NCBI GenBank assembly: GCA_021203185.1
Contig: JAJQBR010000068.1
Span: forward strand, 1 to 33,623
Length of the DNA: 33,623 bases
Reading direction: 5' to 3'
From: Clostridiales bacterium
Lineage (GTDB): Bacteria; Bacillota; Clostridia; Oscillospirales; Oscillospiraceae
Within the stretch, counting starts at the first letter, position 1. Every line of letters begins with the position of its first letter. Below, piece after piece: positions 5,424 through 24,375 of this stretch. The notes beneath the pieces are model-generated. The model saw nothing but the letters and a program-made list of their open reading frames with translations. It did no database searches and was not told where the DNA came from. Both the position numbers and the translations under genes were made by a program.

Positions 5424-5493
5424 AGCGGAACCTCGAAATCATAAAAAAGTTGTGGTTTTTTGTCGCTTTGGGGATGGCGCGGCCCCGCTTTTA

Positions 5494-5652
5494 TTGGTTA
5501 TCCCTTTGAAACAGCCGCATTGTAATAAGCTATTAGCTGTTAGTCAGGCGCTGCAAACCAAAAGCGTAGAGCTTAAAGGGCAGTACCACCAAGCTAAAAG
5601 CCAAAAGCTAGGAGCTAATGGCTATAAAGATGCTGAGCAAAGGGACAACCAG
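5494..5652 (-). repeat. Palindromic intergenic repeat, copy A (behind pth)
   Basis: 159 bp between pth and mfd. Its ends are inverted repeats of each other (TTGGTTATCCCTTTG at the left; the reverse complement of the right end reads CTGGTTGTCCCTTTG), followed inward on both arms by AGCTATTAGCT-like words. It matches copies at 15414-15696 and 20971-21213 in the opposite orientation but lacks most of their centre, and shares an exact 27-base block (5528-5554) with the copy at 24268-24294. It begins 5-6 bases after the pth stop codon. Flanks 5485-5493 and 5653-5661 are only weakly similar, so any target duplication has decayed. Confidence 0.8.
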
Positions 5653-5657
5653 CATTT

Positions 5658-6254
5658 TTACTTGCTGTAGCGGTTCTGGGCCTTGTCGAAGCCCTGCTCC
5701 AGCACCATCTCCACCGCCTCCGCCGCACGCTGGGCGGCGTCGTCCATCAGCTTGGCGTCCTCCGGGGAGAACTTGCCCAGCACCCAGGCGGCCAGGTCGT
5801 AATCCGGGTGAGGCTTCTGCCCCACACCCATTTTGATGCGGGGGAACTGGTCCGTCCCCAATTCCTCTATGATGGACTTGAGGCCGTTATGCCCTCCCGC
5901 GCTGCCTTTTTTTCGCAGACGGAGGGTACCGGTGGGCAGGGAAACGTCGTCGCAGACCACCAGAATGTGGTCCGGCTCAATTTTATAGAAGTGAGCGGCC
6001 TCCTCCACGGCCTCGCCGGAGAGGTTCATATAGGTCTGGGGCTTCATGGCCAGGATGCGCACCCCGCCGCAGGTGAAATCCCCCACCAGAGCGCGAAACT
6101 TGGCCCGATTGATGTGCTGGCCGGTCTTTTGCTCCAGGGCAGCCGCCGCCCGGAACCCGGCGTTGTGCCGGGTGTTGTCGTACTTGGGGCCGGGGTTGCC
6201 CAGGAACACCACCAGCCACTCCACCGGCCCCTGCCGGTTTTTGAACAGAAACAT
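5658..6254 (-). CDS. pth: Peptidyl-tRNA hydrolase
   Basis: 198 aa. Pth releases peptides from peptidyl-tRNA dropped by ribosomes, recycling tRNA; essential in most bacteria. The family signature FLGNPGPKYDNTRHNAGF is at residues 17-34, with Asn20 and catalytic His30 (E. coli Asn10/His20). The second conserved block VVCDDVSLPTGTLRLRKKGS-AGGHNGLKS follows. Start ATG 6254 has a good GGAGG site 8 bases upstream; this gives about ten extra N-terminal residues compared with E. coli. It lies downstream of prs in the conserved block also seen in Bacillus (where the gene is spoVC). Confidence 0.97.
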   Translation of the reverse strand: MFLFKNRQGPVEWLVVFLGNPGPKYDNTRHNAGFRAAAALEQKTGQHINRAKFRALVGDFTCGGVRILAMKPQTYMNLSGEAVEEAAHFYKIEPDHILVVCDDVSLPTGTLRLRKKGSAGGHNGLKSIIEELGTDQFPRIKMGVGQKPHPDYDLAAWVLGKFSPEDAKLMDDAAQRAAEAVEMVLEQGFDKAQNRYSK

Positions 6255-6266
6255 CGTCAGCCTCCT

Positions 6267-6372
6267 GCCCGAAACGGGCGGTCAAAAAAACAGGAAGGAA
6301 AGAAACGCGCAAACGCCCCAAAGGGGTCACCGGCAGGCGATGACCCCTGAAGGGCGATGACCCCTGAAGGGC
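6267..6372 (-). repeat. prs-pth spacer with a 17-bp tandem duplication and hairpins
   Basis: Two exact adjacent copies of GCGATGACCCCTGAAGG occupy 6337-6353 and 6354-6370. TGACCCC in the first copy can pair with GGGGTCA at 6323-6329, so the prs-pth mRNA can form alternative hairpins. A separate GCCCG-aaa-CGGGC stem (6267-6279) lies directly beside the pth ribosome binding site. None has a proper T-tract, so a terminator is not claimed. Confidence 0.7.
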
Positions 6373-6410
6373 TATAAAAGCATAAAACAGTTCGTGAGAA
6401 CAGCAAAAGC

Positions 6411-7385
6411 TCAACTGTAGATAGCGTTCATGGAGGCATCGTTGAACATCCGGGAAATGGCCTCGGCGAACATGGGCGCCACGGTGAGATAGTGGATTTT
6501 CTGACTCAAATCCCCAGGGGCGGGGATGGTGTCCAGCAGCACCAGCTCGTCCAGGGAGGAGTTGTCGATGCGCTCCATAGCCGGGCCGGAGAGGACGCCG
6601 TGGCTGGCACAGGCGGTGACGCTCCTGGCTCCGCCGATGGTCATCAGCGCCCTGGCCGCGCCGCAGAGAGAGCCGGCCGTATCCACCATGTCGTCCAGCA
6701 GAATGACGTTCTTGTCCTTCACGTCGCCGATGATGTTCATGACCTCGGAGGAATTGGCCTTCTGGCGGCGCTTGTCCACGATAGCCATGGGCATATTCAT
6801 CTGTTGAGCAAAGTTCCGCACCCGGGCCACGCTGCCCACGTCGGGGGAAACCACCATGGTGTTTTCATAGCTGTCAGCGAACTTCTTTTTAAAGTAGTCC
6901 ACGAACAGGGAACCGCCCTGGAGGTTGTCCATGGGGATGTCGAAGAAGCCCTGGATCTGGAGACAGTGGATGTCCATAGTCAGCACATGATCCGCCCCCG
7001 CCTTGGTCAGCAGGTCGGACACCAGCCGGGCGGAAATGGGATCTCTGGACTTGGTCTTGCGGTCCTGCCGGGCGTAGCCAAAGTAGGGGAGGACTGCGGT
7101 GATGCGCCCGGCGGAGGCCCGCTTCAGCGCGTCCAGCATGATGAGCATTTCCATCAAGTAGTCGTTGACGCTGCGGTAGTCCTTCTCGCCCCGCTTGCCG
7201 GTGGCGCAGGTGGATTGGACGACGTACACATCGCTGCCCCGGACGGTCTCGTAAATGGAGGCGAAACTCTCCCCGTCGGAGAACGCGCCGCACTCGGAGT
7301 TGCCCATCGGGACGCCGATTTGCTTGCAGATGGCCCTGGTCAGGGCGGGGTTGGAGCTGCCGCTGAAAATCTTGAGGTCTTTCAT
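6411..7385 (-). CDS. prs: Ribose-phosphate pyrophosphokinase (PRPP synthetase)
   Basis: 324 aa, close to the usual ~315. It makes phosphoribosyl pyrophosphate from ribose 5-phosphate and ATP for nucleotide, His and Trp synthesis. Visible: FSDGES near residue 37, the ATP-binding stretch LPYFGYARQDRK with the catalytic-loop sequence SRDPISARL, and the PRPP-binding loop VILLDDMVDTAGS. The usual SPDHGG block reads SPDVGS here, a divergence whose effect is unknown. Start ATG 7385 follows a GGAGAGGA site. It lies between the glmU-like gene and pth, as in Bacillus. Confidence 0.97.
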   Translation of the reverse strand: MKDLKIFSGSSNPALTRAICKQIGVPMGNSECGAFSDGESFASIYETVRGSDVYVVQSTCATGKRGEKDYRSVNDYLMEMLIMLDALKRASAGRITAVLPYFGYARQDRKTKSRDPISARLVSDLLTKAGADHVLTMDIHCLQIQGFFDIPMDNLQGGSLFVDYFKKKFADSYENTMVVSPDVGSVARVRNFAQQMNMPMAIVDKRRQKANSSEVMNIIGDVKDKNVILLDDMVDTAGSLCGAARALMTIGGARSVTACASHGVLSGPAMERIDNSSLDELVLLDTIPAPGDLSQKIHYLTVAPMFAEAISRMFNDASMNAIYS

Positions 7386-7497
7386 AACAAAATCATTCCT
7401 CTCCTGGATTCAAGTCTCTTTTTTCAGGAATTTGCGAATGAATAGGTGACAAAAAAGCATTGTGTTGGACGGCGTCCCAAAAGCAGACAGAGCGCAA

Positions 7498-8301
7498 TCA
7501 GCCCCTGACCACCTGGAACGGGCCGACGATTGTGCCGTCCGCCAGGCGGACGGAGGACACCTGGGAGGCGTTGACCACGCAGCCGCTGCCCAGCGCGCAG
7601 TCGGTGAGTACGCTGTTTGGGCCAAGAACGCAGCCCTCCCCGGCGGTCACCCGCCCCATCAGGATGGTGTTTGGCATAATAACGCTGCCGGGCGCGACCT
7701 GAGTACCCGCCTCCACATAAGTGGTGTTGGGGTCGATGATATCCACGCCCTCCGCCATCAGGCGGTACAGGTTGTCCGCCAGTCCCAGCTCTCTGGCCTG
7801 AAACAGCTCTTTCGGGCCGGTCAGGGGCAATAGCTGGATCTCCGGGTCGTTCAGGGGGGAGTAGTAGTCGCCGTAATTCAGGGCGTCCAAACCGCCTTCC
7901 GCCAGGTCAGCGGCCTCCACCCGGTAAACGCCCATCACGTCCCCTGCAGGGGTGAGAAATTCCTCCTCCACCAGCTCCTGACAGGCAGAGCAGGACAACC
8001 ACACCGGCTGAGTGACGGTGATGACCTTGCCCTCGCATCCGGCGGCAAACTCCATCAGCCGCCGGTTCAGGGATGGGTCGGCGCAGGAGACCACTTCTGT
8101 CCCGGAAGGGAAGCACCCGGCGGTGGGGGCGGTCAGGTCGTCCTCAGAGACGACAAAAAACCGTTCCACCCCCTGCCGCTCCAGACCCATGGCGAGCCAG
8201 CTGGCGGCGGGAGAAAACAGAAGCTTCTGCAACAGGAACGGTTCATAAGAGGACTGGGCTGCCTCTCTCAGCACAAAAATCACCGCACTGGAAGCTGTCA
8301 T
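7498..8301 (-). CDS. Degenerate GlmU-like protein, probably catalytically inactive
   Basis: 267 aa from ATG 8301 (GGGGAG site upstream; longer in-frame starts to 8439 have no ribosome site and code for improbable sequence). The C-terminal ~90 residues match GlmU where the linker enters the left-handed beta-helix: ARELGLADNLYRLMAEGVDI then IDPNTTYVEAG, hexapeptide-like repeats, and VGPFQVVRG, equivalent to the GlmU VGPFAxLRPG word. The protein stops exactly there, so the acetyltransferase active-site half is missing (GlmU ~456 aa). The N-terminal half has the right length and a similar fold pattern but lacks the LAAGxGTRM and GDxPL nucleotidyltransferase motifs. Position directly before prs is that of glmU (gcaD) in Bacillus, so ancestry is well supported; the present function is unknown. 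Confidence 0.75.
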   Translation of the reverse strand: MTASSAVIFVLREAAQSSYEPFLLQKLLFSPAASWLAMGLERQGVERFFVVSEDDLTAPTAGCFPSGTEVVSCADPSLNRRLMEFAAGCEGKVITVTQPVWLSCSACQELVEEEFLTPAGDVMGVYRVEAADLAEGGLDALNYGDYYSPLNDPEIQLLPLTGPKELFQARELGLADNLYRLMAEGVDIIDPNTTYVEAGTQVAPGSVIMPNTILMGRVTAGEGCVLGPNSVLTDCALGSGCVVNASQVSSVRLADGTIVGPFQVVRG

Positions 8302-8570
8302 AGCCCATTCTCCCCTTTCCTCATCGTTTGGGTTTTCGGTGCGCCGCCTCGTCGCGGCTCCGCCGGGAAACGCGCAAGCGGTTTCTCCAGCGTCTCCTAT
8401 TATAGCAAACGGAATTAGATTTTGCACACGAAAACACACATTTTTTTAATGAAATGAAACAATTTGTCGTTTTTACAGTTTTGCCCCCTTTTTTCCCATC
8501 GTTTTCGGCATTTTTGCCAGTTTCAGTGAAAGGAGAGCAGAAGCAAAGTTTTTGAAAAATAGTCCCGGAG
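8302..8570. other. Intergenic region between divergent transcription units
   Basis: No credible gene. On the minus strand a perfect TATAAT (8404-8399) lies about 95 bp before the glmU-like start, but the -35 (GTGCAA, 8427-8422) is weak, so a promoter for the glmU-prs-pth-mfd block is plausible rather than certain. The part from 8430 to 8540 is T-rich and holds nothing recognisable. Confidence 0.5.
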
Positions 8571-8573
8571 CAT

Positions 8574-8603
8574 TGCCGTCATTTGACCGAATGTGGTATA
8601 CTG
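8574..8603 (+). promoter_or_regulatory. Promoter of the DUF2156-GNAT pair
   Basis: TTGCCG (8574-8579), an 18-bp spacer ending TGTGG, and TATACT (8598-8603). It sits about 60 bp upstream of ATG 8663. A nearer TTGACC is only 8 bp from the -10 and cannot be the -35. Confidence 0.65.
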
Positions 8604-8662
8604 CTAGCGGCCCTTTCCTAAATCAACGCTTTGGAAAGGGACTGAACAGAAACGAGGCTATT

Positions 8663-9580
8663 ATGATAGATTTTAAACGTCCGCAGCTGGCAGACAAGGC
8701 GTGGATCGACCCCATCTTCCGCGCCTCCGGCTTCCGCAGCTGCGAATACACCTTCCCCAACCTGATGGCCTGGGCGGAGGCGTTCCACGAGACGGTGGCC
8801 CTGGTGGATGGCTTTGTGGTGGTCCACGTGGGCACAGACGAGGGGGGCTACGGCTGGGCCGCCGGTTCCGGCGACCGAAAAGCCCTGCTCTGCACCCTGG
8901 CCCGGGACGCGGAGAAGCGGGGCCGCTCACTCCGGCTGCTGGGCCTGACCGAAGAACAGACCGAGGAACTGGAAACGCTGTTTCCCGGGAAATTCACCTT
9001 TACCAATTACCGAAACGCGGCGGACTACTGTTACACCGTGGACAAGCTGGCTGACCTGGCAGGGAAAAAACTCCACGCCAAGCGCAACCACATCCACCGG
9101 TTCGTGGAGAACTACCCAGACTGGCGGGTGGCGGAGATCACCCCGGAGAATCTGGACCAGTGCGTGACCCTGGCCCGGGACTGGGAACAGGCCCAGGCGG
9201 AGGCCGGACTGGACGACTGGAACGAGCAGGAAGGGGAAGCCGCTCTGCGCCTCTGCATTCGGCATTATGAAGCGCTGGATCTGGAAGGGCTAATCCTCTA
9301 CGGAGAGGACACCCCCCTGGCCTTTACCATGGGGCGGAGCATTGGCGGGGACACCTACGACGTGATCTTTGAAAAGTCCTACGCCGACATCCAGGGGGCC
9401 TACGCCATGATCAACCGGGAGTTCGCCCGGTGGATTCGCACAAATCACCCGGAGATCGTCTACCTGAACCGGGAGGACGATATGGGAGAGCCGGGCCTGC
9501 GGAAAGCCAAGCTCTCCTACCACCCGGATCTGATGGTGGAAAAACATTTGGCCTGCCTGAAACCGGGGGAGACCCTGTGA
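8663..9580 (+). CDS. DUF2156 (MprF C-terminal-like) protein
   Basis: 305 aa, starting at ATG 8663 (MIDFKRPQ; weak GAGG site). It resembles the soluble C-terminal domain of phosphatidylglycerol lysyltransferases (DUF2156, two tandem GNAT-like folds): KRNHIHRFVENYPDWRVAEI and the late AYAMINREFARWI...YLNREDDMGEPGLRKAKLSYHP are typical. No transmembrane helices are present, so it is not a full MprF; soluble members of this family are widespread in Clostridia and their acceptor is unknown. The stop overlaps the start of the next gene (GTGA), so the two are translationally coupled and probably work together. It runs toward the origin, opposite to its neighbours. Confidence 0.85.
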   Translation: MIDFKRPQLADKAWIDPIFRASGFRSCEYTFPNLMAWAEAFHETVALVDGFVVVHVGTDEGGYGWAAGSGDRKALLCTLARDAEKRGRSLRLLGLTEEQTEELETLFPGKFTFTNYRNAADYCYTVDKLADLAGKKLHAKRNHIHRFVENYPDWRVAEITPENLDQCVTLARDWEQAQAEAGLDDWNEQEGEAALRLCIRHYEALDLEGLILYGEDTPLAFTMGRSIGGDTYDVIFEKSYADIQGAYAMINREFARWIRTNHPEIVYLNREDDMGEPGLRKAKLSYHPDLMVEKHLACLKPGETL

Positions 9581-10407
9581 CCGCCCTGTGCCGCGTCTCC
9601 CACCGGGAGGAGGCGCCCCAGCTGGCCCGGCTGTGGAAGATTTGCTTTGGGGATACCGACGACTATATCGGCCACTACTTTTCCACCTACTACCGCCCGT
9701 CCCGGGCGCTGGTGCTGGAGGACAGGGGGCAGCTCCGCTCCATGCTGCTGACCTTTCCCAACGTCCTGGTGACGGGGGAGGGGAGGGAAGTCCCGGCCTG
9801 CTATATCTACGCCTTTTGCACTGCGCCGGAGGCCCGGAGCCGGGGCTATGGCCGCCGCCTGCTGGCCTGGGCGGAGGAGCAGGCCGCCCGGCAGGGCTGC
9901 CGTCTGGCCGTGATGGTCCCCGGAGAAGCAAGTCTGTTCGCCTTTTATGAGACGCTGGGCTACCGGACGGTATTTTTCCACCGGGAGCAGATTTTTACCC
10001 AAACCGGGACGGAGGATTGCACCCCGGTCCCCTGTGACGGGGCGGCTTACGCCGCCCGGCGGGAAACATTGCTGGCAGGACAGCCCCACATGGCCTATCC
10101 CCCGGAGGTGATGGACTATCAGCGCTCTTTGTGCCGCCGGACGAGGGGCGACTTTTTCCTGTTGGGAGACGGCCTCACCGCCGTGGAGACCGACGGGGAA
10201 ACCCTGTTCTGCAAGGAGCTGTTGACAACGCACCCCCAGGAGGCGGTCAACGCCCTGCTGACCCACTTCGGCAGGGAACGGGCCGTGGTGCGGACCCCGG
10301 CGGGACCGGAGGACAAGGCAAAGGGCTTTGCCGTGGCGAAATCCCTCGTCCCCGGCGGGGATGGGCAGGCGGAGCAAACCGGATACCTGGCCTTCGCTTT
10401 CGACTGA
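9577..10407 (+). CDS. GNAT-family N-acetyltransferase
   Basis: 276 aa from GTG 9577, which overlaps the upstream TGA by 4 bases and has GGGGGAG before it. The acetyl-CoA-binding core is clear: YIYAFCTAPEARSRGYGRRLL (motif A, R-x-x-G-x-G/A) and FYETLGYRTVFFHREQ. The C-terminal half (after ~150) is a less conserved extension, as in Eis-like two-part acetyltransferases. The substrate cannot be read from the sequence. Coupled to the DUF2156 gene. Confidence 0.85.
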   Translation: MTALCRVSHREEAPQLARLWKICFGDTDDYIGHYFSTYYRPSRALVLEDRGQLRSMLLTFPNVLVTGEGREVPACYIYAFCTAPEARSRGYGRRLLAWAEEQAARQGCRLAVMVPGEASLFAFYETLGYRTVFFHREQIFTQTGTEDCTPVPCDGAAYAARRETLLAGQPHMAYPPEVMDYQRSLCRRTRGDFFLLGDGLTAVETDGETLFCKELLTTHPQEAVNALLTHFGRERAVVRTPAGPEDKAKGFAVAKSLVPGGDGQAEQTGYLAFAFD

Positions 10408-10444
10408 TCCGCGCTCTATCACGAAAAATTCACAAAAGAATCGG

Positions 10445-10473
10445 TTGAAACCTGTGCGGTTTTATGGTAGAGT
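10445..10473 (+). promoter_or_regulatory. Promoter of the small P-loop protein gene
   Basis: TTGAAA (10445-10450), 17-bp spacer ending TATGG, TAGAGT (10468-10473). The transcript would begin with a leader containing a perfect 8-bp hairpin CCTTTTCC/GGAAAAGG (10493-10500/10511-10518) just before the ribosome binding site. Confidence 0.6.
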
Positions 10474-10546
10474 ATACACATAGCAAAGGCCCCCTTTTCC
10501 TAAAAAAACGGGAAAAGGAAAAAGCAATGTTAAGGAGTGATTCTCT

Positions 10547-10957
10547 ATGGTAAGAGTGATTATGGGCGGCGCAGGAGCAGGAAAGACCAAGCAGTTGATC
10601 GACCTGCTCAACGCCGCCGTCACCACAGAGCATGGCAACATCATCTGCATCGAGCCAAACCTGGACCTGACGTATAATATCCACCACGACATCCGTCTGG
10701 TGGCTGCCAACGAATACCCCATCCGGTCCTACGAGAAGTTACAGGGTTTCCTGTGCGGGCTGTACGCCGGCAACTACGACATCACCCACATTTTCGTGGA
10801 CAACCTGTGCAAGATCGCAGGCAACAAAGATCCCGCCGCAGTGGAGCAGTTCCTGAACTGGCTGGACACCTTCGGCGACCAGAACAGCATCAAGTTCACC
10901 ATCACCATGTCCTTCACCCCGGATCTGGCCACCGAAGGCATCAAGAAGTATTGCTAA
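10547..10957 (+). CDS. Small P-loop NTPase-like protein of unknown function
   Basis: 136 aa, start ATG 10547 after AAGGAG. Walker A is GGAGAGKTK at residues 7-15; a possible Walker B is ITHIFVDNL near 79-87. The protein is much shorter than most P-loop enzymes and has no other motif I can assign. It is preceded by its own promoter and a hairpin leader and followed by a strong terminator, so it is a single-gene unit between two conserved blocks. It might be described in databases as a PilT-like or nucleotide-kinase-like protein on the basis of the P-loop alone; that would be weak. Function unknown. Confidence 0.8.
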   Translation: MVRVIMGGAGAGKTKQLIDLLNAAVTTEHGNIICIEPNLDLTYNIHHDIRLVAANEYPIRSYEKLQGFLCGLYAGNYDITHIFVDNLCKIAGNKDPAAVEQFLNWLDTFGDQNSIKFTITMSFTPDLATEGIKKYC

Positions 10958-10974
10958 ACATCCAAAATTGCTGC

Positions 10975-11008
10975 AAAAAGGCTCTCCATACCGTGTGGAG
11001 AGCCTTTT
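10975..11008. terminator. Bidirectional terminator
   Basis: Perfect 8-bp GC stem GGCTCTCC/GGAGAGCC (10980-10987/10997-11004) flanked by AAAA and TTTT that extend the pairing. It lies between the converging P-loop gene (plus) and ricT (minus) and can serve both. Confidence 0.9.
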
Positions 11009-11027
11009 ATTGTGCATTTCAAGAGGA

Positions 11028-12107
11028 TTAACTGGTCCCGCTGCTCTCCCCGCTGCGGCGGTGATGAGGCCGGTGGCGGCGGCGAGAGGTTCCGCCGGAG
11101 GACCGTTTTTCCTCGTCGCCCTGCTTCGCGGGGGCGGGGCGGCTGTTCTTCCGGGGCTGGGATGTTTTCTTCTTCCGGGGCGGCTCCGCCTGCGGCTTCT
11201 GCTCCTGGGGTTCGGCGGATTCCTTCTGGAATCGGGGCTGGAGGGAAGGCTTTTCAGCCTTTTCCGGCTTTTCGTACCCCGCCGGGCGCTTGCCCTTGCC
11301 GCTGCGGATAATCTCAAGCTCGTTGTTTTTGTAGATGTGTACCTCGTCCGGATCCCTGTCCAGCACCACCTGGCACTGCTCCCGCAGCAGATTGACCTGG
11401 TTGATAACGCCCACGCCGTCCGGGGTCTTGACCAGCGACTCCAGCTTGGGGGCGTGTTTCAGCAGATCCTCGTAGGCGTCCTGCTCGTATTTCAGGCAGC
11501 ACATCAGCCGCCCGCAGGAGCCGGAAATTTTTGTGGGGCTGAGGGAGATGCTCTGGGTCTTGGCCATTTTGATGGACACCGGCTGGAAGTCCTCCAAGAA
11601 CTGCGTACAGCAGAAGGGCCGTCCGCAGACCCCCAGACCACCCATCATCCGGGCCTCGTCCCGGACGCCGATCTGCCGCAGCTCAATGCGGGTGCGGAAC
11701 ACCGACGCCAGGTCTTTTACCAGACTGCGGAAGTCCACCCGCCCGTCGGCGGTGAAGTAAAACAGGATTTTGCTGCCGTCGAAGCTGTACTTCACGTCCA
11801 CCAGCTTCATCTCCAGGCCGTGTTCCAAAATCTTCTTCTGGCAGATTTTATAGGCATTTTTCTCCCGCTCCTTGTTGCGTTCCACCTGAAGGAAGTCCTC
11901 TTTGGTGGCCACTCGGAGCATAGGCCGCAGGGTGGAGACCAGTTCCATTTCGTCCACCATAAAGTTGGACTGGACGCACTCGGCAAACTCCACGCCTTTG
12001 GATGTTTCGATGATAACGTGTTCCCCTACGTCCACGTGGACGCCGTTGGGGTTAAAATAGTATTGTTTTCCGCCGGATTTGAACCGGATGCCGATCACTT
12101 CGGTCAT
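11028..12107 (-). CDS. ricT: PSP1-domain protein RicT (YaaT)
   Basis: 359 aa. RicT is part of the RicA-RicF-RicT (Y-) complex that carries Fe-S clusters and, in Bacillus, supports RNase Y-dependent mRNA processing, biofilm formation and sporulation. The PSP1 domain is clear, with two Cys clusters GVCGRPFCC (about 159-165) and GSCGRLMCC (about 197-203) that supply the cluster ligands. After about residue 285 comes a basic, Pro/Glu/Lys-rich disordered tail longer than in Bacillus. ATG 12107 follows GGAGG. Downstream of holB as in Bacillus, but with a GNAT gene inserted between them. Confidence 0.95.
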   Translation of the reverse strand: MTEVIGIRFKSGGKQYYFNPNGVHVDVGEHVIIETSKGVEFAECVQSNFMVDEMELVSTLRPMLRVATKEDFLQVERNKEREKNAYKICQKKILEHGLEMKLVDVKYSFDGSKILFYFTADGRVDFRSLVKDLASVFRTRIELRQIGVRDEARMMGGLGVCGRPFCCTQFLEDFQPVSIKMAKTQSISLSPTKISGSCGRLMCCLKYEQDAYEDLLKHAPKLESLVKTPDGVGVINQVNLLREQCQVVLDRDPDEVHIYKNNELEIIRSGKGKRPAGYEKPEKAEKPSLQPRFQKESAEPQEQKPQAEPPRKKKTSQPRKNSRPAPAKQGDEEKRSSGGTSRRRHRPHHRRSGESSGTS

Positions 12108-12146
12108 GTTGTTCCTCCATGCGCCGGGCTGCGGCGCGGTATATCG

Positions 12147-12635: not shown

Positions 12636-12646
12636 GGTCTTTCCCC

Positions 12647-13962: not shown

Positions 13963-14005
13963 ACAAACCGCCCTCCTTTGGCTTCTGTTTTGCAGATCAC
14001 TTTGC

Positions 14006-15331: not shown

Positions 15332-15344
15332 AGCGGCTCCTTTC

Positions 15345-15391
15345 AAAAAGCGGCCGGGACTGCGTCAAAAACGGTTTGACACAGCCCCGGC
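15345..15391 (-). terminator. Terminator or attenuator hairpin directly before the yaaO-like gene
   Basis: Long imperfect stem on both arms of 15353-15391: CCGGG, CTG and GTCAAA pair with TTTGAC, CAG and CCCGG, with two single mismatches and a 5-base loop. On the minus strand it is followed after 3-4 bases by TTTTT (15349-15345), which abuts the AAAGGAG of the next gene. It can end the rpmH-jag transcript and blocks readthrough into the decarboxylase. Confidence 0.6.
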
Positions 15392-15413
15392 GGGAAAAGC
15401 GTAGTTTTGAATA

Positions 15414-15696
15414 ACTGGTTGTCCCTTTTACTCAACCTTATGAGCATTTTGGCTCTTAGCTCTTAGCTTTTAGCCATTAGCTTTGTGGTTCTCGGCATTA
15501 CGTGCTGCGCTTACCGTTTGTATGACTTTACAAACGGGTGGTTTCGCTCTCAGCTTCCTTTTTAGCTGTTCGCTTTAGACTGGTGATACCTGACTACAGG
15601 GAGAAGCGCAGCTTCGGAAGTGCCGCTTGACGGCGACAGCTAACAACTAATAGCTAATAGCTTATCACAACGCGGCTGATTCAAAGAGATAGTCAG
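15414..15696 (+). repeat. Palindromic intergenic repeat, copy B (behind jag)
   Basis: 283 bp filling most of the jag to yaaO-like gap. Left end ACTGGTTGTCCCTTTTACTC; the reverse complement of the right end reads CTGACTATCTCTTTGAATCA, an imperfect terminal inverted repeat. Close match along its length to copy C at 20971-21213, including TTAGCTTTTAGCCATTAGC, GGCATTACGTGCTGCGCTTA and CCTTTTTAGCTGTT. B has a ~40-bp GC-rich insertion (about 15599-15640). A central hairpin CCGTTTGT/ACAAACGG lies at 15514-15521/15530-15537. Flanking TTGAATA (15407-15413) and TTGAGTA (15698-15704) may be a decayed target duplication. No open frame of note. Confidence 0.85.
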
Positions 15697-15704
15697 ATTG
15701 AGTA

Positions 15705-16583: not shown

Positions 16584-16646
16584 GGGAATCCTTCATTCCT
16601 TTCTATATAACTCTATGCAGCGCAATGCAAATTTCCGGCAGACGGG

Positions 16647-18032: not shown

Positions 18033-18104
18033 GGTTCGGCGTCCTCCTTCTTGGGGGTATATTTCCACGAAAGGGCCTTTGCGCCCTTATGGGATCAAAG
18101 ATTT

Positions 18105-18249
18105 AATTAGCAGTTAGCAATGTGTAATGAAATCATGCTGTTACGATTTTCATAAAAACGGTTCGTCCGTTTTTTGCTCCACATCCGGCAGCTTATCACC
18201 AGCATACCGTTTCGATTCTCTTTTCATTGCTAATTGCACATTGCTAATT
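18105..18249. repeat. Inverted-repeat element between yidD and yidC
   Basis: 145 bp with 28-bp imperfect terminal inverted repeats (18105-18132 and 18222-18249, 22 of 28 positions matching), starting AATTAGCA on both arms and ending ATGAAA inward. The right arm contains ATTGCTAATT twice. A central AAAACGG/CCGTTTT hairpin sits at about 18155-18175 with T-runs on both sides. It abuts the yidD stop codon (18251-18253). The sequence is different from the other intergenic repeat family here, although the layout is alike. Confidence 0.75.
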
Positions 18250-18250
18250 G

Positions 18251-18469
18251 TCACGGTACGGGGTCGTACTCGATGCTCTTCTGCCGGTGCAGGGGTTGGC
18301 ACTTTGCCAGCCGTTTGGCCGCCAGCAGGGAGCCTCTGGCCGCTCCGTATTTCTCCACCGCCTCCTTCGCGTACTCGGAGCAGGTGGGGATAAACCGACA
18401 CCGGGGCGGCAAGCCGGAGGAGATGTACCGCTGATAGAGACCAATCAGCCACAGCAGCAGCCGTTTCAT
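18251..18469 (-). CDS. yidD: Membrane protein insertion efficiency factor YidD
   Basis: 72 aa, typical size. The family signature is complete: IGLYQRYISSGLPPRCRFIPTCSEYAKEAVEKYG, with three Cys in this region and later. YidD is a small membrane-associated protein that aids YidC-dependent insertion. ATG 18469 overlaps the rnpA stop (ATGA), so the two are translationally coupled. The C-terminus SIEYDPVP ends at the border of a repeat element. Confidence 0.96.
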   Translation of the reverse strand: MKRLLLWLIGLYQRYISSGLPPRCRFIPTCSEYAKEAVEKYGAARGSLLAAKRLAKCQPLHRQKSIEYDPVP

Positions 18470-18834
18470 TGCTCCGCCTCCGTCCCCGCAGGGGAAACGG
18501 GCTTGAGTAAGCCGAGTTTTTTTGCCACCCGGAGGAAATCCCGCTCCATGGCGTGGTATCCGGCGCTGACGGCCCGAACCCGGGCCACGATGACAATGTC
18601 CCGTCCGGGGATCAACTCGTCCCGGTGCAGCCGGTAAATTTCCCGCAGCTGGCGGCGAACCCGGTTGCGAACCACGGCGTGACCCAGCTTGGTGCCAGTG
18701 GTGATGCCCACCCGGCTCTCACCCTTGCGGTTGCGCTGCCAGTAGAGAGCCAGCGTTGGAGCGGCGGCGGAACGTCCCCGGCGGTACAGACGCTGGAAAT
18801 CCCGGTTGGACTTGATGGTTACCGTTTTCTTCAT
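18466..18834 (-). CDS. rnpA: Ribonuclease P protein component
   Basis: 122 aa from ATG 18834 (MKKTVTIKSNRDFQRLYRRG; AGG-rich site upstream). Protein subunit of RNase P, which trims the 5' leader of tRNAs. The RNR motif is present: VVRNRVRRQLREIYR, with GRDIVIVAR after it. It lies downstream of rpmH, as in nearly all bacteria, but separated by a 182-bp structured spacer. Confidence 0.97.
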   Translation of the reverse strand: MKKTVTIKSNRDFQRLYRRGRSAAAPTLALYWQRNRKGESRVGITTGTKLGHAVVRNRVRRQLREIYRLHRDELIPGRDIVIVARVRAVSAGYHAMERDFLRVAKKLGLLKPVSPAGTEAEQ

Positions 18835-19016
18835 GCTCTCCGGCCTTCCTGAACAAACGGCGGCGACAGGCAGGGGAGAGGGGGCCGCGACCTGGGCCTG
18901 GCCCCCTCTCCGCCGCCCGCCTGGGGCGGGCTTGTCCGCAGATACATTACAGGGGTGGAGCTTGCTGCAGCTTCCACCCCTCGCACTTGCTTCCGCATCG
19001 TTCGTACTTTGAGCGC
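18835..19016 (-). other. Structured rpmH-rnpA spacer with three hairpins
   Basis: 182 bp without a gene. Three inverted repeats in a row: a perfect 12-bp GC stem GGAGAGGGGGCC/GGCCCCCTCTCC (18875-18886/18900-18911), CCGCCC/GGGCGG (about 18914-18930) and AGGGGTGGA/TCCACCCCT (18951-18959/18973-18981). None is followed by a T-tract on the minus strand, so they look like processing or mRNA-stability structures rather than terminators. Confidence 0.75.
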
Positions 19017-19157
19017 TCAATAGCTCAGCTGGTTGCGGCCCTTGGCGCGGCGGCGGGCCAGCACCTGGCGGCCGCTCTTGGTGGCCATTCTTGCCCGGAA
19101 GCCGTGAACCTTCTGTCCGTGACGCTTTTTGGGCTGGTAGGTACGTTTGGTAGCCAT
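19017..19157 (-). CDS. rpmH: 50S ribosomal protein L34
   Basis: 46 aa: [20 protein letters not shown] then [20 protein letters not shown] and RNQLSY. This is the whole L34 family signature with a two-residue N-terminal extension (MAT before the usual start). ATG 19157 has GGAGG 8 bases upstream. First gene of the rpmH-rnpA-yidD-yidC-jag unit, divergent from dnaA. Confidence 0.97.
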
Positions 19158-19297
19158 TCGATACACCTCCGAATCGTGAAATCAGCGGGGCGGCCTTGCC
19201 GCCTGTACCCGCTGCGGGGAAAGCCCCGGCCGCCGGGCGATTCCCGGTCCGGCCCTGGGGGCAAAGCATCCCCAGGGGACACTATAACGCACTGCTT
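19158..19297 (-). other. rpmH leader
   Basis: About 130 transcribed bases between the rpmH promoter and start codon. It can form two GC hairpins, CCCTGGGG/CCCCAGGG (19254-19261/19271-19278) and GGGG-aaag-CCCC near 19217-19228. No open frame or known riboswitch is recognised. Confidence 0.5.
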
Positions 19298-19327
19298 ATT
19301 ATACTCCACCAAATCGGCTGCTGTCAA
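19298..19327 (-). promoter_or_regulatory. rpmH operon promoter
   Basis: Minus strand TTGACA (19327-19322), 18-bp spacer, TATAAT (19303-19298): both hexamers are perfect. It is one of the strongest promoter matches in the window, fitting a ribosomal-protein operon. Confidence 0.9.
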
Positions 19328-19353
19328 CCGTTTGCCCCAGGTTTTTTGTCATT

Positions 19354-19362
19354 TTATCCACA
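19354..19362 (+). promoter_or_regulatory. DnaA box upstream of dnaA
   Basis: Perfect consensus TTATCCACA, 265 bp before the dnaA start and 27 bp behind the rpmH -35. It may serve dnaA autoregulation or form the upstream half of a bipartite origin; only this one strong box is seen on this side. Confidence 0.75.
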
Positions 19363-19502
19363 GCGCGCCCCTTTTCCGCCCCGCCTGTGGGCACGCACCG
19401 GCCCTGCAAGCCCGCCTTTCCCTTCCACGACGTTTTTTCTCTCCCGGTGGGCTTTGTCCACTATTCACGGTTATCCTGCCCCCTCTGGCGGTAAATTTCT
19501 GT

Positions 19503-19531
19503 TTGTATCAGAAGCTGTTTTGTGGTATACT
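19503..19531 (+). promoter_or_regulatory. dnaA promoter
   Basis: TTGTAT (19503-19508), 17-bp spacer ending TGTGG, TATACT (19526-19531), about 97 bp upstream of the dnaA ATG. Confidence 0.75.
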
Positions 19532-19627
19532 AAAGGCAGACTAAAAGATGGGGTGTTTTGCGCTTTTTTGCCCTGCCCCGGCCTGCGCACTCCCTTTATT
19601 CATCTAAAAGAGAAAAGAGGTTTTGAC

Positions 19628-20953
19628 ATGAATTCTGCCGCGGAAATTTGGGCCAGTGTGCTTCCCCTGCTGGAAAGCGAACTGACCACCACGGCTGTCA
19701 CCACCTGGTTCATGGACGTGGAGGCTCTGGATCTGGAGCGCAACCGGCTGGTGATCACCAATCCCTTCGCCTTTAAGTGTGGCATCATTCGAGATCGCTA
19801 CACCGACACCCTGAAAAAAGCCCTTTACGAACTGTTCGCCGCTGACATCGACGTGATCGTCCTCGACCCGGAGGATGCGGAGCAGTATCGCCGCCGCCGC
19901 AGCGCCCCGGAGGAAAACGCCAATATCCTGATGGGCAGCGAGGACTACACCTTCGACCGGTTCGTGGTGGGTTCCTCCAACAAGTTCGCTTACAACGCCT
20001 CTCTTGCCGTGGCCAATCAGCCCGGCAAAAGCTACAACCCCCTGTTCCTCTACGGGGAATCCGGCCTGGGCAAGACCCACCTGCTCTACGCCATCTTCCA
20101 TGCCATCCAGCAGCAGCACCCGGAGTTTCAAATCATCTACGTCAAGGGGGACGAGTTCACCAACGAACTCAACGAGGCCATCCGCCTGAACTCCACCGAC
20201 GCCTTCCGCCAGAAGTACCGGGACAAAGACCTGCTGCTGGTGGATGACATCCAGTTCATCGCCGGCAAGGACTCCACTCAGGAGGAATTTTTTAACACCT
20301 TTAACAACCTCTACGAGGCGGGCAAACAGATTGTCCTGACCTCCGACCGGCCCCCATCCGACATGGTCCGGCTGGAGGACCGGCTGCGCACCCGGTTCGA
20401 GTGGGGCCTGATGGCAGACATCCAGCCGCCAGACTACGAAACCCGCTGCGCCATCATCAAGGACAAAGCCATTCTGCTGGGACTGAATCTGCCCCAGGAC
20501 ATCATCGAATACATCGCCCACAACATCACCGCCAACGTGCGGCAGCTGGAGGGGTCCCTCCACCGACTGATGGCCTATCGGGACCTGCTGGGTAACCAGG
20601 TGGACGACGTGGCCGCAGGCCGGGCCATTCGGGAGTTGATCCGCACCTCCAGCGAACTGACCCCCTCCGCCGACGTGATTCTGGAGGAGACAGCCAAGTT
20701 TTACGGCATCACCCCAGAGACCATCCTGTCCACCAGCCGCAAGTCCAACATCATCCTGGCCCGCCAGGTCAGTATGTACATCATCCGGTCCATGACCACC
20801 CTGAGCCTCCCGGAAATCGGGAAAATTTACGATATGCACCACACCACCGTCATGCACTCCATCGACAAGATCGAAAACACCCTGAAAACCGACAAGGCCC
20901 TGGCCGACGTCATCAAGGACATCAAGGCCAACATCAACGACCGCACCTACTGA
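19628..20953 (+). CDS. dnaA: Chromosomal replication initiator DnaA
   Basis: 441 aa from ATG 19628 (AGAGG site; the longer open frame upstream covers the promoter and is not coding). DnaA binds DnaA boxes and melts the origin. Domain I is at 1-80, domain II is short, the AAA+ core has Walker A GESGLGKT at 143 and LLLVDDIQF near 201-209, and the C-terminal helix-turn-helix domain IV follows. The recognition signature is unusual: instead of GGRDHTT it reads YDMHHTT (401-407), one residue shorter, with His404 where the DNA-contacting Asp (E. coli Asp433) is expected; His405, Thr406 and Thr407 are kept. A repeat element starts 17 bases after the stop. Confidence 0.98.
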   Translation: MNSAAEIWASVLPLLESELTTTAVTTWFMDVEALDLERNRLVITNPFAFKCGIIRDRYTDTLKKALYELFAADIDVIVLDPEDAEQYRRRRSAPEENANILMGSEDYTFDRFVVGSSNKFAYNASLAVANQPGKSYNPLFLYGESGLGKTHLLYAIFHAIQQQHPEFQIIYVKGDEFTNELNEAIRLNSTDAFRQKYRDKDLLLVDDIQFIAGKDSTQEEFFNTFNNLYEAGKQIVLTSDRPPSDMVRLEDRLRTRFEWGLMADIQPPDYETRCAIIKDKAILLGLNLPQDIIEYIAHNITANVRQLEGSLHRLMAYRDLLGNQVDDVAAGRAIRELIRTSSELTPSADVILEETAKFYGITPETILSTSRKSNIILARQVSMYIIRSMTTLSLPEIGKIYDMHHTTVMHSIDKIENTLKTDKALADVIKDIKANINDRTY

Positions 20954-20961
20954 CAAAGATA

Positions 20962-21222
20962 AAATCTGTTACTGGTTATCCCTTTTACTCAGCCTTATGA
21001 GCATTTTAGCTATTAGCTATTAGCTTTTAGCCATTAGCTCTGTGGTTCTTGGCATTACGTGCTGCGCTTATCATTTACATAACTTTACAAATGGGTGGGC
21101 TCACTCTTGGTTTCCTTTTTAGCTGTTTGCTTTAAACCGGTATTACCTGACTAACAGCTAACAGCTAACGGCTAATAGCTTATCACAAACGGCTGATTCA
21201 AAGGGATAGTCAGAAATCTGTT
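20962..21222 (+). repeat. Palindromic intergenic repeat, copy C, with 9-bp flanking direct repeats
   Basis: 243-bp element (20971-21213) in the dnaA-dnaN spacer, flanked on both sides by the exact 9-mer AAATCTGTT (20962-20970 and 21214-21222). Terminal inverted repeats of 23 bp (20972-20994 and 21191-21213) match at 19 of 23 positions. TAGC-rich subterminal arms can pair. The central hairpin CATTT/AAATG (21072-21076/21089-21093) differs from copy B by a paired change. Non-coding. The structure is that of a MITE-like insertion with a target-site duplication. Confidence 0.88.
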
Positions 21223-21262
21223 TTGTAAACCTCTTTGTTTTCTCCTGTGCGACAACCTGCCA

Positions 21263-21293
21263 TTGCGCCCTGCGCGTATACAGTTTGTATAAT
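21263..21293 (+). promoter_or_regulatory. Possible dnaN promoter
   Basis: A perfect TATAAT (21288-21293) with TTGCGC (21263-21268) at a long 19-bp spacing, about 240 bp before dnaN. The -35 is weak, and the transcript would run through the DnaA boxes. Confidence 0.5.
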
Positions 21294-21308
21294 TCCGCGC
21301 AGAAGGCC

Positions 21309-21465
21309 CTTTCCACAGTTTCCACAGCTTTTTTCCACTTGTGGAAACTGCAATTGTGGAAAATATCTTTCCATTTTTGGGATCTGTGGGAACCTGTGGA
21401 TAACGCTGTTCAATCTGTGGATTTGTTTTTTGCTGCTGTTTCAGCGGAAAATTGCGTTTTCCACA
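21309..21465. other. oriC: oriC: cluster of DnaA boxes
   Basis: Between copy C and dnaN there are at least six boxes: CTTTCCACA (21309-21317, +), GTTTCCACA (21318-21326, +), the same on the minus strand (21340-21348), TTTTCCACA on minus (21355-21363), the perfect TTATCCACA on minus (21395-21403) and TTTTCCACA (21457-21465, +). Weaker ones lie at 21385-21393 and 21416-21424. The clustering between dnaA and dnaN, with genes diverging on both sides, marks the replication origin. Confidence 0.93.
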
Positions 21466-21492
21466 GACGAGCGGCACCTACTACTACTACTA
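21457..21492 (+). other. Origin unwinding element: DnaA box, GC-rich spacer, DnaA-trios
   Basis: A DnaA box (TTTTCCACA, 21457-21465) is followed by a 12-bp GC-rich spacer (21466-21477) and five perfect CTA triplets (21478-21492), then TTTT. Read on the complementary strand 3' to 5' the triplets are GAT repeats, the DnaA-trio motif that in Bacillus lets DnaA filaments load on single strands and open the duplex. The order box, GC cluster, trios is that of the basal origin unwinding system. It lies 39 bp before dnaN. Confidence 0.85.
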
Positions 21493-21531
21493 TTTTCAGG
21501 TTCCTTTCCTATCAAACAAAAGGAGGTTCTT

Positions 21532-22638
21532 ATGCGCTTTACCTGCGAGAAATCCCTGTTGCAAACCATGATTACCATTACCTCCCGAACTGTGGCGGCA
21601 AAAAGTTCCATTCCAGCGTTGGAAGGCATCCTCATCGAAGCCGGAGAACAACTCCAGCTGACCGGCTACAACCTGAAAACCGGGATCCGCGCTCTGGTAT
21701 CCGCCGAAATTCAGGAAGAAGGAGATATCGTTGTCTCCGCCCGGCTGTTCAACGAGATTGTCCGGCGGTTACCGGATGAAGTTGTCAATGTGTCAACCGA
21801 CCGCAGTCTTATCACCATCCGGTGCGGCGCCAGTCAGTTCCAGATTCAGGGCAGCAGCCCGGAGGAGTACCCGGATTTGCCCAGCGTAGAGTTCCAAAAC
21901 AGCATCTCCCTGCCCCAGCGGACGCTGATGTCTATGCTCAACCAGACCCTGTTCGCCGTCAGCCACGACGAGAGCCGTCCCATCCACACCGGCGAGTTGT
22001 TCGAGGTGGAGGACGGCACCCTGACCATCGTTTCCGTGGACGGCTACCGGCTGGCCCTGCGGCGGGAACCGGTCACCAGTGGGCCGAACTGCTCCTTCGT
22101 GGTGCCGGCGATCTCCCTCAATGAGGTGGCCAAAATCTGCGGCGACACCGACGAACCAGTAGAGATTGTTCAGGGATCCCAGCATATTATGTTCAAAACC
22201 GGCAGCGTCACGCTGATTTCCCGGCGGCTGGAGGGTACTTTTTTGGACTACAAGCACTCCATTCCCACCAGCAACCCCATTTCCGTCACTGTAGACCGGC
22301 GGCAGCTCATCGCCTCCATCGAGCGCTGCTCCCTCATCGTCACCGAGCAGCAGAAAAGCCCTCTGCGCTGCACCCTGGAGAACAACCTGCTGAAACTCCA
22401 GACCGCCACCGCTCTGGGTACCGTCTATGACGAGTGCGGCGTGGTGTCCAACGGCGGCGAACTGGAAATTGGCTTCAACAACCGCTATATGCTGGACGCG
22501 CTGAAAGCCGCTCCGGAGGACGTGGTGCAGCTGACGCTGAACACCCCCATCTCCCCCTGTGTCATTGTGCCGGAGGAGGGACAGGGCAACCAGTTCCTGT
22601 ATATGGTGCTGCCCGTCCGTCTGCGGGCCAGGGCATGA
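21532..22638 (+). CDS. dnaN: DNA polymerase III beta subunit (sliding clamp)
   Basis: 368 aa, the usual length. Ring clamp that keeps the replicative polymerase on DNA. ATG 21532 ([20 protein letters not shown]) follows AGGAGG. Three clamp folds are evident; the typical [13 protein letters not shown] is near the middle and the protein ends [12 protein letters not shown], where the family has the conserved Met-Pro-Met/Leu-Arg end. Directly downstream of the origin and first of the dnaN-rlbA-recF-remB series. Confidence 0.98.
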
Positions 22639-22655
22639 GGAAACCGAGGAACACT

Positions 22656-22868
22656 ATGAAACAGCAAACCGTAAAAATTGAAACGGAATTTATCCGCCTG
22701 GACGCCCTGCTCAAGCTGGCCCACCTGGTCTCCAGCGGCGGCGAGGCCAAAATCCGCATCCAGGACGGCCAAGTTTGGGTCAACGGGGAGGTCTGCACCA
22801 TGCGGGGCAAAAAACTGCGCCCCGGCGACAGCGCCGTCCTGCTGGACACCACGGTAACGGTGGAGTAA
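22656..22868 (+). CDS. rlbA: S4-domain RNA-binding protein YaaA/RlbA
   Basis: 70 aa from ATG 22656 (GAGG site 7 bases upstream); an in-frame ATG at 22635 overlapping the dnaN stop would add 7 residues and cannot be excluded. The S4 fold is plain: [20 protein letters not shown] then [14 protein letters not shown]. Homologues between dnaN and recF in Bacillus are associated with the ribosome large subunit. Its start lies 17 bases after dnaN and its stop 2 bases before recF. Confidence 0.93.
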
Positions 22869-22870
22869 CG

Positions 22871-23980
22871 ATGGTTGTCAACGCCATCGGCCTGGAAAAC
22901 TTCCGCAACTATAGCGCGCTAAACGCTCAATTCTGCCCCAGCATCAACGTCATCACCGGGGACAATGCCCAGGGCAAGACCAATCTGCTGGAAGCCATCG
23001 CCTACCTCTCCGCCTGTCGGAGCCACCGGGCCAGAGCGGACAGCGAACTGATCCGCTTCGAGGCCCAGCGGGCCAGGCTGGAGGGGGAGATTTTCTCCCG
23101 GAACCGGGACTTCCGGCTGGAGGTTCGGCTGGGCCGAGGGGTGCGCCGCCAAATGTGGAGCAACGGCGTCCGCCTGAAAAACGCGGGGGAACTGACCGGC
23201 ATCCTGAAAACCGTCCTCTTCTGTCCGGAGGATCTGGATCTCATCCGGGCCGGGGCGGCGGAGCGGAGAAAATTCCTGGACGGGGCCATCTGCCAGCTGC
23301 GGCCCCGGTATGGGGCGGCCCTGGCGGAGTACAAACGCCTGCTGGAGCAGAAGCGACGCATCCTCCGGGACTGGCCGGAGAAGCCCTCCCTGCTGGACTT
23401 GATGGAGGATTACAACCTGCGGATGTGCCAGACTGGGGCGCTGGTGATCCACTACCGGGCGCACTTTGTCCAAAAGCTGAACCAGTGCGCTCCCGCCATC
23501 CACGCCAGCTTCTCCAACGGGCGGGAGGAACTGGGGCTGGGCTACCAGACGGTGAAAACCGTCACCGACCCGCTGGCCCCGGCTCAGACGATTTTCAATC
23601 AATTACAGGATCATATGGCCCGGCACCGCCAGGCTGAGCTGGAGGCCCGGAGCTGTCTCTCCGGCCCACACAAGGACGATTTGTTGGTGGATATCAACGG
23701 ACGCAGCGTCCGCACCTACGGCAGTCAGGGCCAGACCCGCACCGCAGCCCTGAGCCTGGAACTGGCCCAGCGGGAGATTTTTTACGACAACGACGGGGAG
23801 TATCCGGTGCTGCTGCTGGACGACGTCCTCAGCGAACTGGACCAGCGGCGGCAGGAGTTTGTCCTCAACCGCATCCAGGGGGGACAGGTGTTTATCACCT
23901 GCTGCGAGAGCGACCGGCTCTCCGCGCTGGAGGCGGGGCAGGTGCTGCGCATCGAAAACGGCGCGCTGTTGGAGGGATAA
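22871..23980 (+). CDS. recF: DNA replication and repair protein RecF
   Basis: 369 aa from ATG 22871. SMC-like ATPase that helps load RecA at gaps with RecO and RecR. It starts VNAIGLENFRNYSALNAQF, with Walker A GDNAQGKTN near residue 30, the ABC signature YGSQGQTRT near 285 and Walker B PVLLLDDVLSELD at about 312-324, all intact. Downstream of rlbA with 2 bases between. Confidence 0.97.
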   Translation: MVVNAIGLENFRNYSALNAQFCPSINVITGDNAQGKTNLLEAIAYLSACRSHRARADSELIRFEAQRARLEGEIFSRNRDFRLEVRLGRGVRRQMWSNGVRLKNAGELTGILKTVLFCPEDLDLIRAGAAERRKFLDGAICQLRPRYGAALAEYKRLLEQKRRILRDWPEKPSLLDLMEDYNLRMCQTGALVIHYRAHFVQKLNQCAPAIHASFSNGREELGLGYQTVKTVTDPLAPAQTIFNQLQDHMARHRQAELEARSCLSGPHKDDLLVDINGRSVRTYGSQGQTRTAALSLELAQREIFYDNDGEYPVLLLDDVLSELDQRRQEFVLNRIQGGQVFITCCESDRLSALEAGQVLRIENGALLEG

Positions 23981-23982
23981 CC

Positions 23983-24276
23983 GTGTATCTGCACCTGGGA
24001 AACGGCGTTTTGGTGGACGAAAAAGACGTAATTGGCGTTTTTGACCTGGAAATCACGTCTCAAAGCTACCGAACAAGGCAATACTTGAACCGGGCAGAAA
24101 AAAACGGCCACGTGGCCTATGTGGACATCGAGGAACTGCCCAAGAGCTTTGTGGTCTGCGCCCCCAAAGGGCAGGGGCAGACAGTTTATCTCTCCCCCCT
24201 GGCCAGCCAGACGCTCCAGCGGCGTTCGGCGCGGCGGTGGTGGGAAGAAAATGAGCTGTTAGCTACTAGCTATTAG
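23983..24276 (+). CDS. remB: RemB-like extracellular matrix regulator (DUF370)
   Basis: 97 aa from GTG 23983 with GGAGGG 8 bases upstream, 2 bases after recF. MYLHLGNGVLVDEKDVIGVF is typical of RemA/RemB DUF370 proteins, and the place between recF and gyrB is that of remB (yaaB) in Bacillus, where it promotes matrix gene expression by an unclear route. The last eight residues (ELLATSY and stop) come from the repeat sequence that begins at 24253, so the original C-terminus has been replaced or extended by the repeat. Confidence 0.88.
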   Translation: MYLHLGNGVLVDEKDVIGVFDLEITSQSYRTRQYLNRAEKNGHVAYVDIEELPKSFVVCAPKGQGQTVYLSPLASQTLQRRSARRWWEENELLATSY

Positions 24277-24375
24277 CTGTTAGTCAGGCGCTGCCAGACG
24301 AAAGCTGGGTTCTAATAACCAATCGCTAAAAAGCGGCGGAAGTTTCTCTTTGAACTGAGCAAAAGAAATTGCCAC
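24253..24375 (-). repeat. Palindromic intergenic repeat, copy D (overlaps the remB 3' end)
   Basis: About 120 bp. The block 24268-24294 is identical over 27 bases to 5528-5554 in copy A, and the right end ACTGAGCAAAAGAAATTGCC resembles the GCTGAGCAAAGGGACAACC end of copy A. The left terminus seems to be lost. It contributes the remB stop codon (TAG, 24274-24276) and fills the remB-gyrB gap. Coordinates are approximate. Confidence 0.7.

Follow-up and report, generated by a model that had tools for sequence, protein, structure and literature searches.

TAGC-rich repeats of an Oscillospiraceae bacterium: IS1595-type MITEs and a heptad palindrome that adjoins stop codons

The stretch of DNA analysed here, referred to below as the window, is a 33,623-nucleotide contig (JAJQBR010000068.1; contig 53 of assembly GCA_021203185.1) from a Clostridiales bacterium of the Oscillospiraceae, and it is an origin region, with the genes mfd, pth, trmE, jag, yidC, rnpA, rpmH, dnaA, dnaN, recF, remB, gyrB and gyrA. 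These names derive from the labels of the first reading, gene order and homology, except for proteins that were used as queries against relatives. A preliminary description had united four TAGC-rich palindromic repeats of this window, A to D, in one high-copy family placed directly behind stop codons. Our analysis indicates that two layers are very probably superimposed here: A, B and C are, almost certainly, miniature inverted-repeat transposable elements (MITEs) of the IS1595 family, and they appear to carry as cargo a separate palindrome with heptad arms, bare copies of which are placed behind stop codons.

The window's own genome (2.48 Mb, 198 contigs, 98.5% complete) was sampled as the window together with 90 stretches around matches to the terminal inverted repeat (TIR), amounting to 596,020 bases with 58.8% G+C (approx. 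24% of the genome); the element counts given for this genome apply to that sample, which was picked for holding repeats. Other genomes of the genus are labelled G002, G003 and so on, and individual sequence stretches L098, L099 and so on. The TIRs are approx. 24 bp long. Allowing up to two mismatches, we count 131+136 occurrences of their motif CTGRYTATCCCTTT across the 2.48-Mb genome, compared with 14+12 for a reversed-pattern control, so that chance is excluded as the source of the shared termini. The high copy number first proposed is borne out by this count and by 44 full-length matches to copy C in the sampled DNA, counting C and B. When paired TIRs and an 8-bp duplication with no more than one mismatch were required, 44 elements were obtained, of which 43 were kept; the remaining one (L136:4378, a TIR pair with a one-mismatch duplication within a gene) was discarded as a chance match before the count of 43. 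The duplication is perfect in 33/43 accepted copies and has one mismatch in 10/43, the duplicated 8-mers are strongly A+T-rich, and every one of the 43 has one L-type end (TTTTACTCAG) and one R-type end (TTTGAATCAG), as in the insertion sequence (IS).

An autonomous element with both ends the same as those of the MITEs is found in a sister species (988 bp, L206 5561–6548, JAJPXY010000161.1), where it is flanked by the target duplication ATTGCTAA. Its 293-amino-acid protein matches PF12762 (1.1e-20), PF12760 (1e-14) and NF033547, the IS1595 family transposase (1.2e-55), and an identical, intact copy of the element is present in G018. Transposase protein matches of some kind were obtained in 9/32 genomes of the genus, among them a 63% relative in G002 with differing ends. 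With C as the query, matches were found in 12/32 genus genomes and, at E ≤1e-8, in 4/300 genomes sampled across the family, all four in the same genus; the named records with the TIR motif are metagenome-assembled genomes called Clostridiales, Bacillota or Oscillospiraceae bacterium. The shared ends, the duplications and the transposase partner with the same ends argue that the TIR-bearing repeats are IS1595 MITEs. The copies in the window and the features that accompany them are as follows.

5493–5653, no strand assigned: copy A, a 161 bp IS1595-type MITE with an A-type TAGC core, between pth and mfd (TIR pair).
5494–5507 and 5639–5652: TIRs of A.
15352–15392, minus strand: likely intrinsic terminator of jag, intact beyond B (read by eye).
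15414–15697, plus strand: copy B, an IS1595-type MITE with a C-type TAGC core (TIR pair, alignment with 40 other copies).
15595–15635, no strand assigned: GC-rich insert of approx. 41 bp in B, missing in C and in most of the aligned copies (alignment).
20963–20970, plus strand: left 8-bp target duplication of C, AATCTGTT.
20971–21214, plus strand: copy C, a 244 bp IS1595-type MITE between dnaA and the DnaA-box region that precedes dnaN (TIRs, perfect duplication).
21215–21222, plus strand: right 8-bp target duplication of C, AATCTGTT.

Inverted termini and inner blocks are common to A, B and C, with A matching B and C at both ends, and B and C share 75.7% identity in an alignment of 284 columns. 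The claim of one family with shared termini and inner blocks stands for these three copies, but not for D, which lacks a left TIR and retains only a decayed right end. Likewise, the distance of approx. 0–18 bases from a stop codon is confirmed for A (4 nt from that of pth), B (7 nt behind that of jag, which is on the minus strand) and C (17 nt from that of dnaA), but not for D, whose stop comes from the repeat itself. No open reading frame (ORF) of at least 80 amino acids lies wholly within A, B or C. The site of C is empty in five relatives (G005, G014, G017, G018 and G019), which marks it as a young element, and that of B is empty in G017 and G014, where by eye the same hairpin and T-run come after the jag stop. 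At the site of A, G014 also holds an element, the interior of which is partly different, and A is therefore probably an old insertion. With its duplication, C (20971–21222) makes the dnaA–dnaN origin region 252 bp longer, upstream of a cluster of the DnaA-box-like TGTGGAAA; this addition is absent in the five relatives. The GC-rich module inserted in B, with CCGTCAAGCGGCACTTCC / CCCTTTCAGGGGAGG words, also forms the interior of other IS1595-ended elements (L099:1-158; L149:4784-4952; L171:1-269) and is found in the more distant genus members G023 and G015.

The TAGC-rich core is itself a palindrome, the arms of which contain 7-nt TTAGCNN units and, in the alignment of copies, differ chiefly by 7- or 14-base indels. 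A search with the A-type core recovered copies without any TIR, fused to stop codons. By the combined use of a profile and an arm detector we found 84 modules away from stretch ends, and in 27/84 no IS ends were detectable, 'TIR-less' meaning that on both sides the TIR score is under the 99th percentile for random windows. As the detector often takes the inner arm of C-type elements for the edge, the class with one TIR (44/84 modules) is meaningless and only the class without TIRs was used. Twenty-three TIR-less modules were testable, i.e. both neighbours had been called by our homemade gene caller and at least one side faced a stop. In this set a stop codon is no more than 12 nt away in 19/23 cases compared with 5.1 expected under uniform placement (P ~9e-12), a null that ignores promoters and terminators; negative distances between module and stop may reflect a stop supplied by the module itself. 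With at least 60 nt free, 11/14 lie within 12 nt compared with 1.3 expected. The result holds as the TIR threshold is lowered from 16 to 9 (17/19 at 9) and recurs in relatives (7/8 compared with 2.2 expected, one module just under the threshold being counted as a miss), and at atpB–atpE, yicC–remA and murB–rapZ the module begins 0–5 nt after the native, conserved stop. As a pattern, a class of stop-abutting palindromes distinct from the MITEs is well supported. The preliminary description could not separate the two, and its positional idea is stronger for the TIR-less palindromes.

Copy D stands between these classes. Its features in the window are the following.

23983–24276, plus strand: remB ORF, the last codons and stop TAG (24274–24276) of which come from D.
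24252–24370, approximate edges, plus strand: copy D, half-stripped; its TAGC arm is fused to remB and its right IS end is decayed.

The TGA at 24252–24254 is out of frame, and remB reads through to the TAG within D, ending GAG CTG TTA GCT ACT AGC TAT TAG, compared with GAG AAA TAA in G005 and G014. D is able to supply this stop because the repeat unit contains TAG and its length of 7 nt is not divisible by 3, so that stops arise in several frames. The repeat is also found in G018 and G019 and is absent in G005, and G014 holds a different insert. D is an intermediate from which one IS end has been lost.

A palindrome of unrelated sequence was found in similar positions, and is represented once in the window.

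18108–18253, minus strand: second heptad palindrome (5' NNGCAAT and 3' ATTGCNN units), abutting the stop of the gene in the yidD position (18251–18469, minus strand).

Orthologous copies of this second palindrome are present in G017, G019, G014 and G018; the interior of the window's copy is inverted relative to these four, aligning on the other strand only, as if the arms had recombined. Eight such ATTGC palindromes were found in the own-genome sample; 6/8 testable ones have a stop within 12 nt compared with 3.0 expected, and in relatives the corresponding figure is 5/5 compared with 0.9, four of the five being the one orthologous site behind yidD. IS1595-type elements are inserted in ATTGC palindromes in several stretches (L206:5540-5561 and 6549-6560; L114; L167); A+T-rich 8-mers are available in these palindromes, e.g. 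the duplication ATTGCTAA. The two kinds of palindrome also alternate at the same operon junctions. At atpB–atpE, a TAGC palindrome is present in the own genome, G005, G003 and G017, whereas G014 has just nine bases before an A-rich stretch and G019 an unrelated NNGCAAT/ATTGCNN palindrome. At yicC–remA, the TAGC type is found in the own genome, G003, G017 and G019 and the ATTGC type in G014 and G018; in ten more distant genomes the gap measures approx. 9–30 nt and contains no palindrome. At murB–rapZ, full modules are present in the own genome, G005, G003 and G019 (that of G019 being interrupted and containing a run of N), with short mini-palindromes in G014 and G017 and none in G018.

The placement of the TIR-bearing MITEs is less precise. 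A stop codon lies within 20 nt in 18/43 accepted copies and a start codon within 20 nt in 1/43, 10/43 lie between divergent genes, and none of the 43 overlaps a called gene, whereas a null based on target composition puts 37% inside genes. The 18 copies near stops compare with 4.3 expected when all intergenic positions are weighted by target composition (P ~5e-8), and with 12.0/32 when A+T-weighted positions within the same intergenic regions are considered (P ~9e-4), these P values being rough because the weights derive from the same sites. In seven convergent regions the excess disappears (5 observed, 4.1 expected). C-type copies counted regardless of duplication are near stops in 16/44 cases in the own genome and 6/19 in relatives, and under the strict criteria of TIR and duplication the relatives gave six elements, two of them near a stop, a weak replicate. 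The MITE bias towards stops is thus real but moderate, and is largely explained by A+T-rich targets together with the avoidance of genes and starts. Accordingly, the expected bias towards gene 3' ends was found for both TIR-bearing and TIR-less copies, but the picture of a family positioned behind stops fits the TIR-less copies and not the TIR copies as a whole, and the suggestion that insertion is tolerated only at 3' ends survives as an exclusion from genes, given the copies between divergent genes. The tabulation of orientation proposed earlier revealed no preferred end overall: where a C-type copy has a stop within 20 nt, that stop is faced by the L end in 10 cases and by the R end in 6 in the own genome, compared with 1 and 5 in relatives.

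The idea that the repeats are mRNA 3' structures, already raised in the preliminary description, was weighed in the form that stabilizers, ribosome stallers or terminators have been selected behind stops. In its favour, the folds of C, B and A are much more stable than those of shuffled sequences (z −5.0, −5.3 and −4.8 respectively), two unrelated palindromes occupy the same operon sites (atpB–atpE, yicC–remA) in different relatives, and one paper reports that Escherichia coli repetitive extragenic palindromic (REP) sequences within 15 nt of a stop stall ribosomes (PMC12306157). However, the folding of the TIR copies is due to their inverted ends, D folds no better than shuffles (z −0.42), and many of the sites differ among relatives. 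In the consensus fold of 41 copies, two-sided change was seen in 1/36 pairs, giving no sign that arm pairing has co-evolved; when arms were swapped among 13 bare modules, a module's own arms paired slightly worse than swapped ones (permutation P 0.98), and among 36 TIR elements own arms paired no better than those of others (P 0.99 and 0.86). Selection on arm pairing or RNA structure is not supported by these data, and we consider this explanation unlikely. As for a bidirectional terminator, the T-run is missing at the expected place in the elements (by eye), and the candidate was rejected. Beyond the element, at the 18 MITE ends nearest stops, a script with limited loop size found terminators in 3/18, and a looser count by eye gave a hairpin and T-run in approx. 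eight (L098, L100, L114, L147, L152, L154, L160 and L167).

A further explanation would make all TAGC repeats IS1595 MITEs, the bare ones being old copies with deleted or decayed ends in which deletions stopped at genes. Half-stripped copies exist, D among them, and bare copies are old, being common to several species at atpB–atpE and murB–rapZ; C, which five relatives lack, is young. This account nevertheless needs deletions to have ended within 12 nt of a stop in 19/23 modules, often with more than 60 nt free on the other side, and needs the arms to stay recognizable while the 24-bp ends vanish; moreover, the ATTGC family has the same placement without IS1595 ends. We regard it as possible, although with the chances somewhat against it. 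Far less probable is a classical enterobacterial-type family, as implied by the earlier likening to enterobacterial repetitive intergenic consensus (ERIC) sequences and bacterial interspersed mosaic elements (BIMEs). The repeats are palindromic, extragenic, high-copy and near stop codons, but A–C have IS1595 ends, with the 8-bp duplications of that family, and no Rfam family match was found in the window. According to two papers, REPs measure 20–40 bp, bear a GTAG (or CGTC) tag at one end and are mobilized by RAYTs, and their GTAG termini can supply a stop codon to flanking ORFs (PMC3733652, PMC12306157). The present palindromes resemble REPs and REPINs in lying outside genes near stops and, in D, in giving remB its stop. 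They differ in having arms with 7-nt tandem units and in being longer, the bare modules measuring approx. 64–279 bp with the exception of the murB–rapZ mini-palindromes of G014 and G017, and in starting with TRAGC rather than GTAG; at the printed junctions, read by eye and with no dedicated tag scan, module ends are TRAGC/TTAGC. In a crude motif screen of 1.53 Mb of overlapping loci, which include approx. one quarter of the own genome, no candidate Y1/HUH (RAYT) protein was convincing by eye.

Palindrome-associated transposable elements (PATEs) of the IS200/IS605 family have palindromic ends, are non-autonomous and are not known to make a target duplication. The bare palindromes are like them in these respects, but no IS200/IS605 gene is linked to them here. 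The closest parallel for the MITEs is the ISHwa6-related MITE of Haloquadratum walsbyi, an IS1595 derivative of 165 bp with seven copies, 25-bp TIRs and 8-bp direct repeats (PMC3852290). The elements described here are likewise short and non-coding, with long TIRs of approx. 24 bp, 8-bp duplications and an IS1595 affiliation. In contrast, C measures 244 bp, at least 43 accepted copies are present in a 24% sample, and the heptad-palindrome core also exists alone; D lacks the left end of an IS1595 element, and the 27/84 TIR-less modules score as having neither end. Our literature searches returned no recognized description of these repeats in this group. Read as a whole, A–C are transposon-derived rather than the bare structural repeats first envisaged, the duplication being clear in C and not in A or B.

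Several results weigh against the two-layer reading. The own genome holds no intact transposase with these ends and no PF12762 match, only a single 50-amino-acid transposase relict (internal deletion, L151) that contains a stop and adjoins a TIR, in an assembly that is broken by repeats. In a fixed register the 8-bp duplication of A is not clear, with 6/8 positions mismatched, and B likewise has no clear duplication. Some modules scored as TIR-less (L154, L162 and L174, by eye) retain sub-threshold TIR remnants on the far side, and our gene caller could take genes cut short by an element, such as remB, for native ends. Neither a transposase nor a target duplication is known for the bare palindromes, and the lack of co-evolution in arm pairing described above belongs here also. 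In L102, L105 and L181, IS1595-type elements pass into foreign sequence just before the contig end, which suggests that other insertion sequences within the TAGC arms break the assembly.

Under the two-layer reading, an IS1595 transposase would recognize the approx. 24-bp ends in trans and insert the MITE into A+T-rich 8-mers, duplicating them, and insertions in genes would be removed by purifying selection; such mobilization may extend to the present own genome. The TAGC core would be a separate heptad-arm palindrome carried as cargo, bare copies of which may originate through a separate, REP-like process or represent old MITE cores that have lost their ends; in the mRNA, the bare copies would form a long hairpin following the stop codon. 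A REP-like element that had its own mover and was captured by IS1595 ends is favoured by the precision with which stop codons are abutted and by the parallel family of ATTGC palindromes, whereas half-stripped copies such as D favour the stripped core. More tentatively, the TTAGCNN and ATTGCNN palindromes could, as independent sequence types, form one class of mobile repeat in this genus that inserts or is kept immediately after stops, within operons such as atpB–atpE as well, its unrelated members replacing one another at shared sites in sister species and one of the two types having been captured by IS1595 ends as cargo of the MITEs.

The MITE part of this system is ordinary in kind, despite its high copy number and a copy in the dnaA–dnaN origin region. 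At remB the repeat rewrites the end of a conserved protein. Of greater importance are the bare palindromes, which bear on the old question of why REP-like extragenic palindromes adjoin stop codons, and junctions that are empty, or hold one palindrome or an unrelated one, in close genomes constitute a natural experiment on targeted insertion versus selection at the level of the mRNA.

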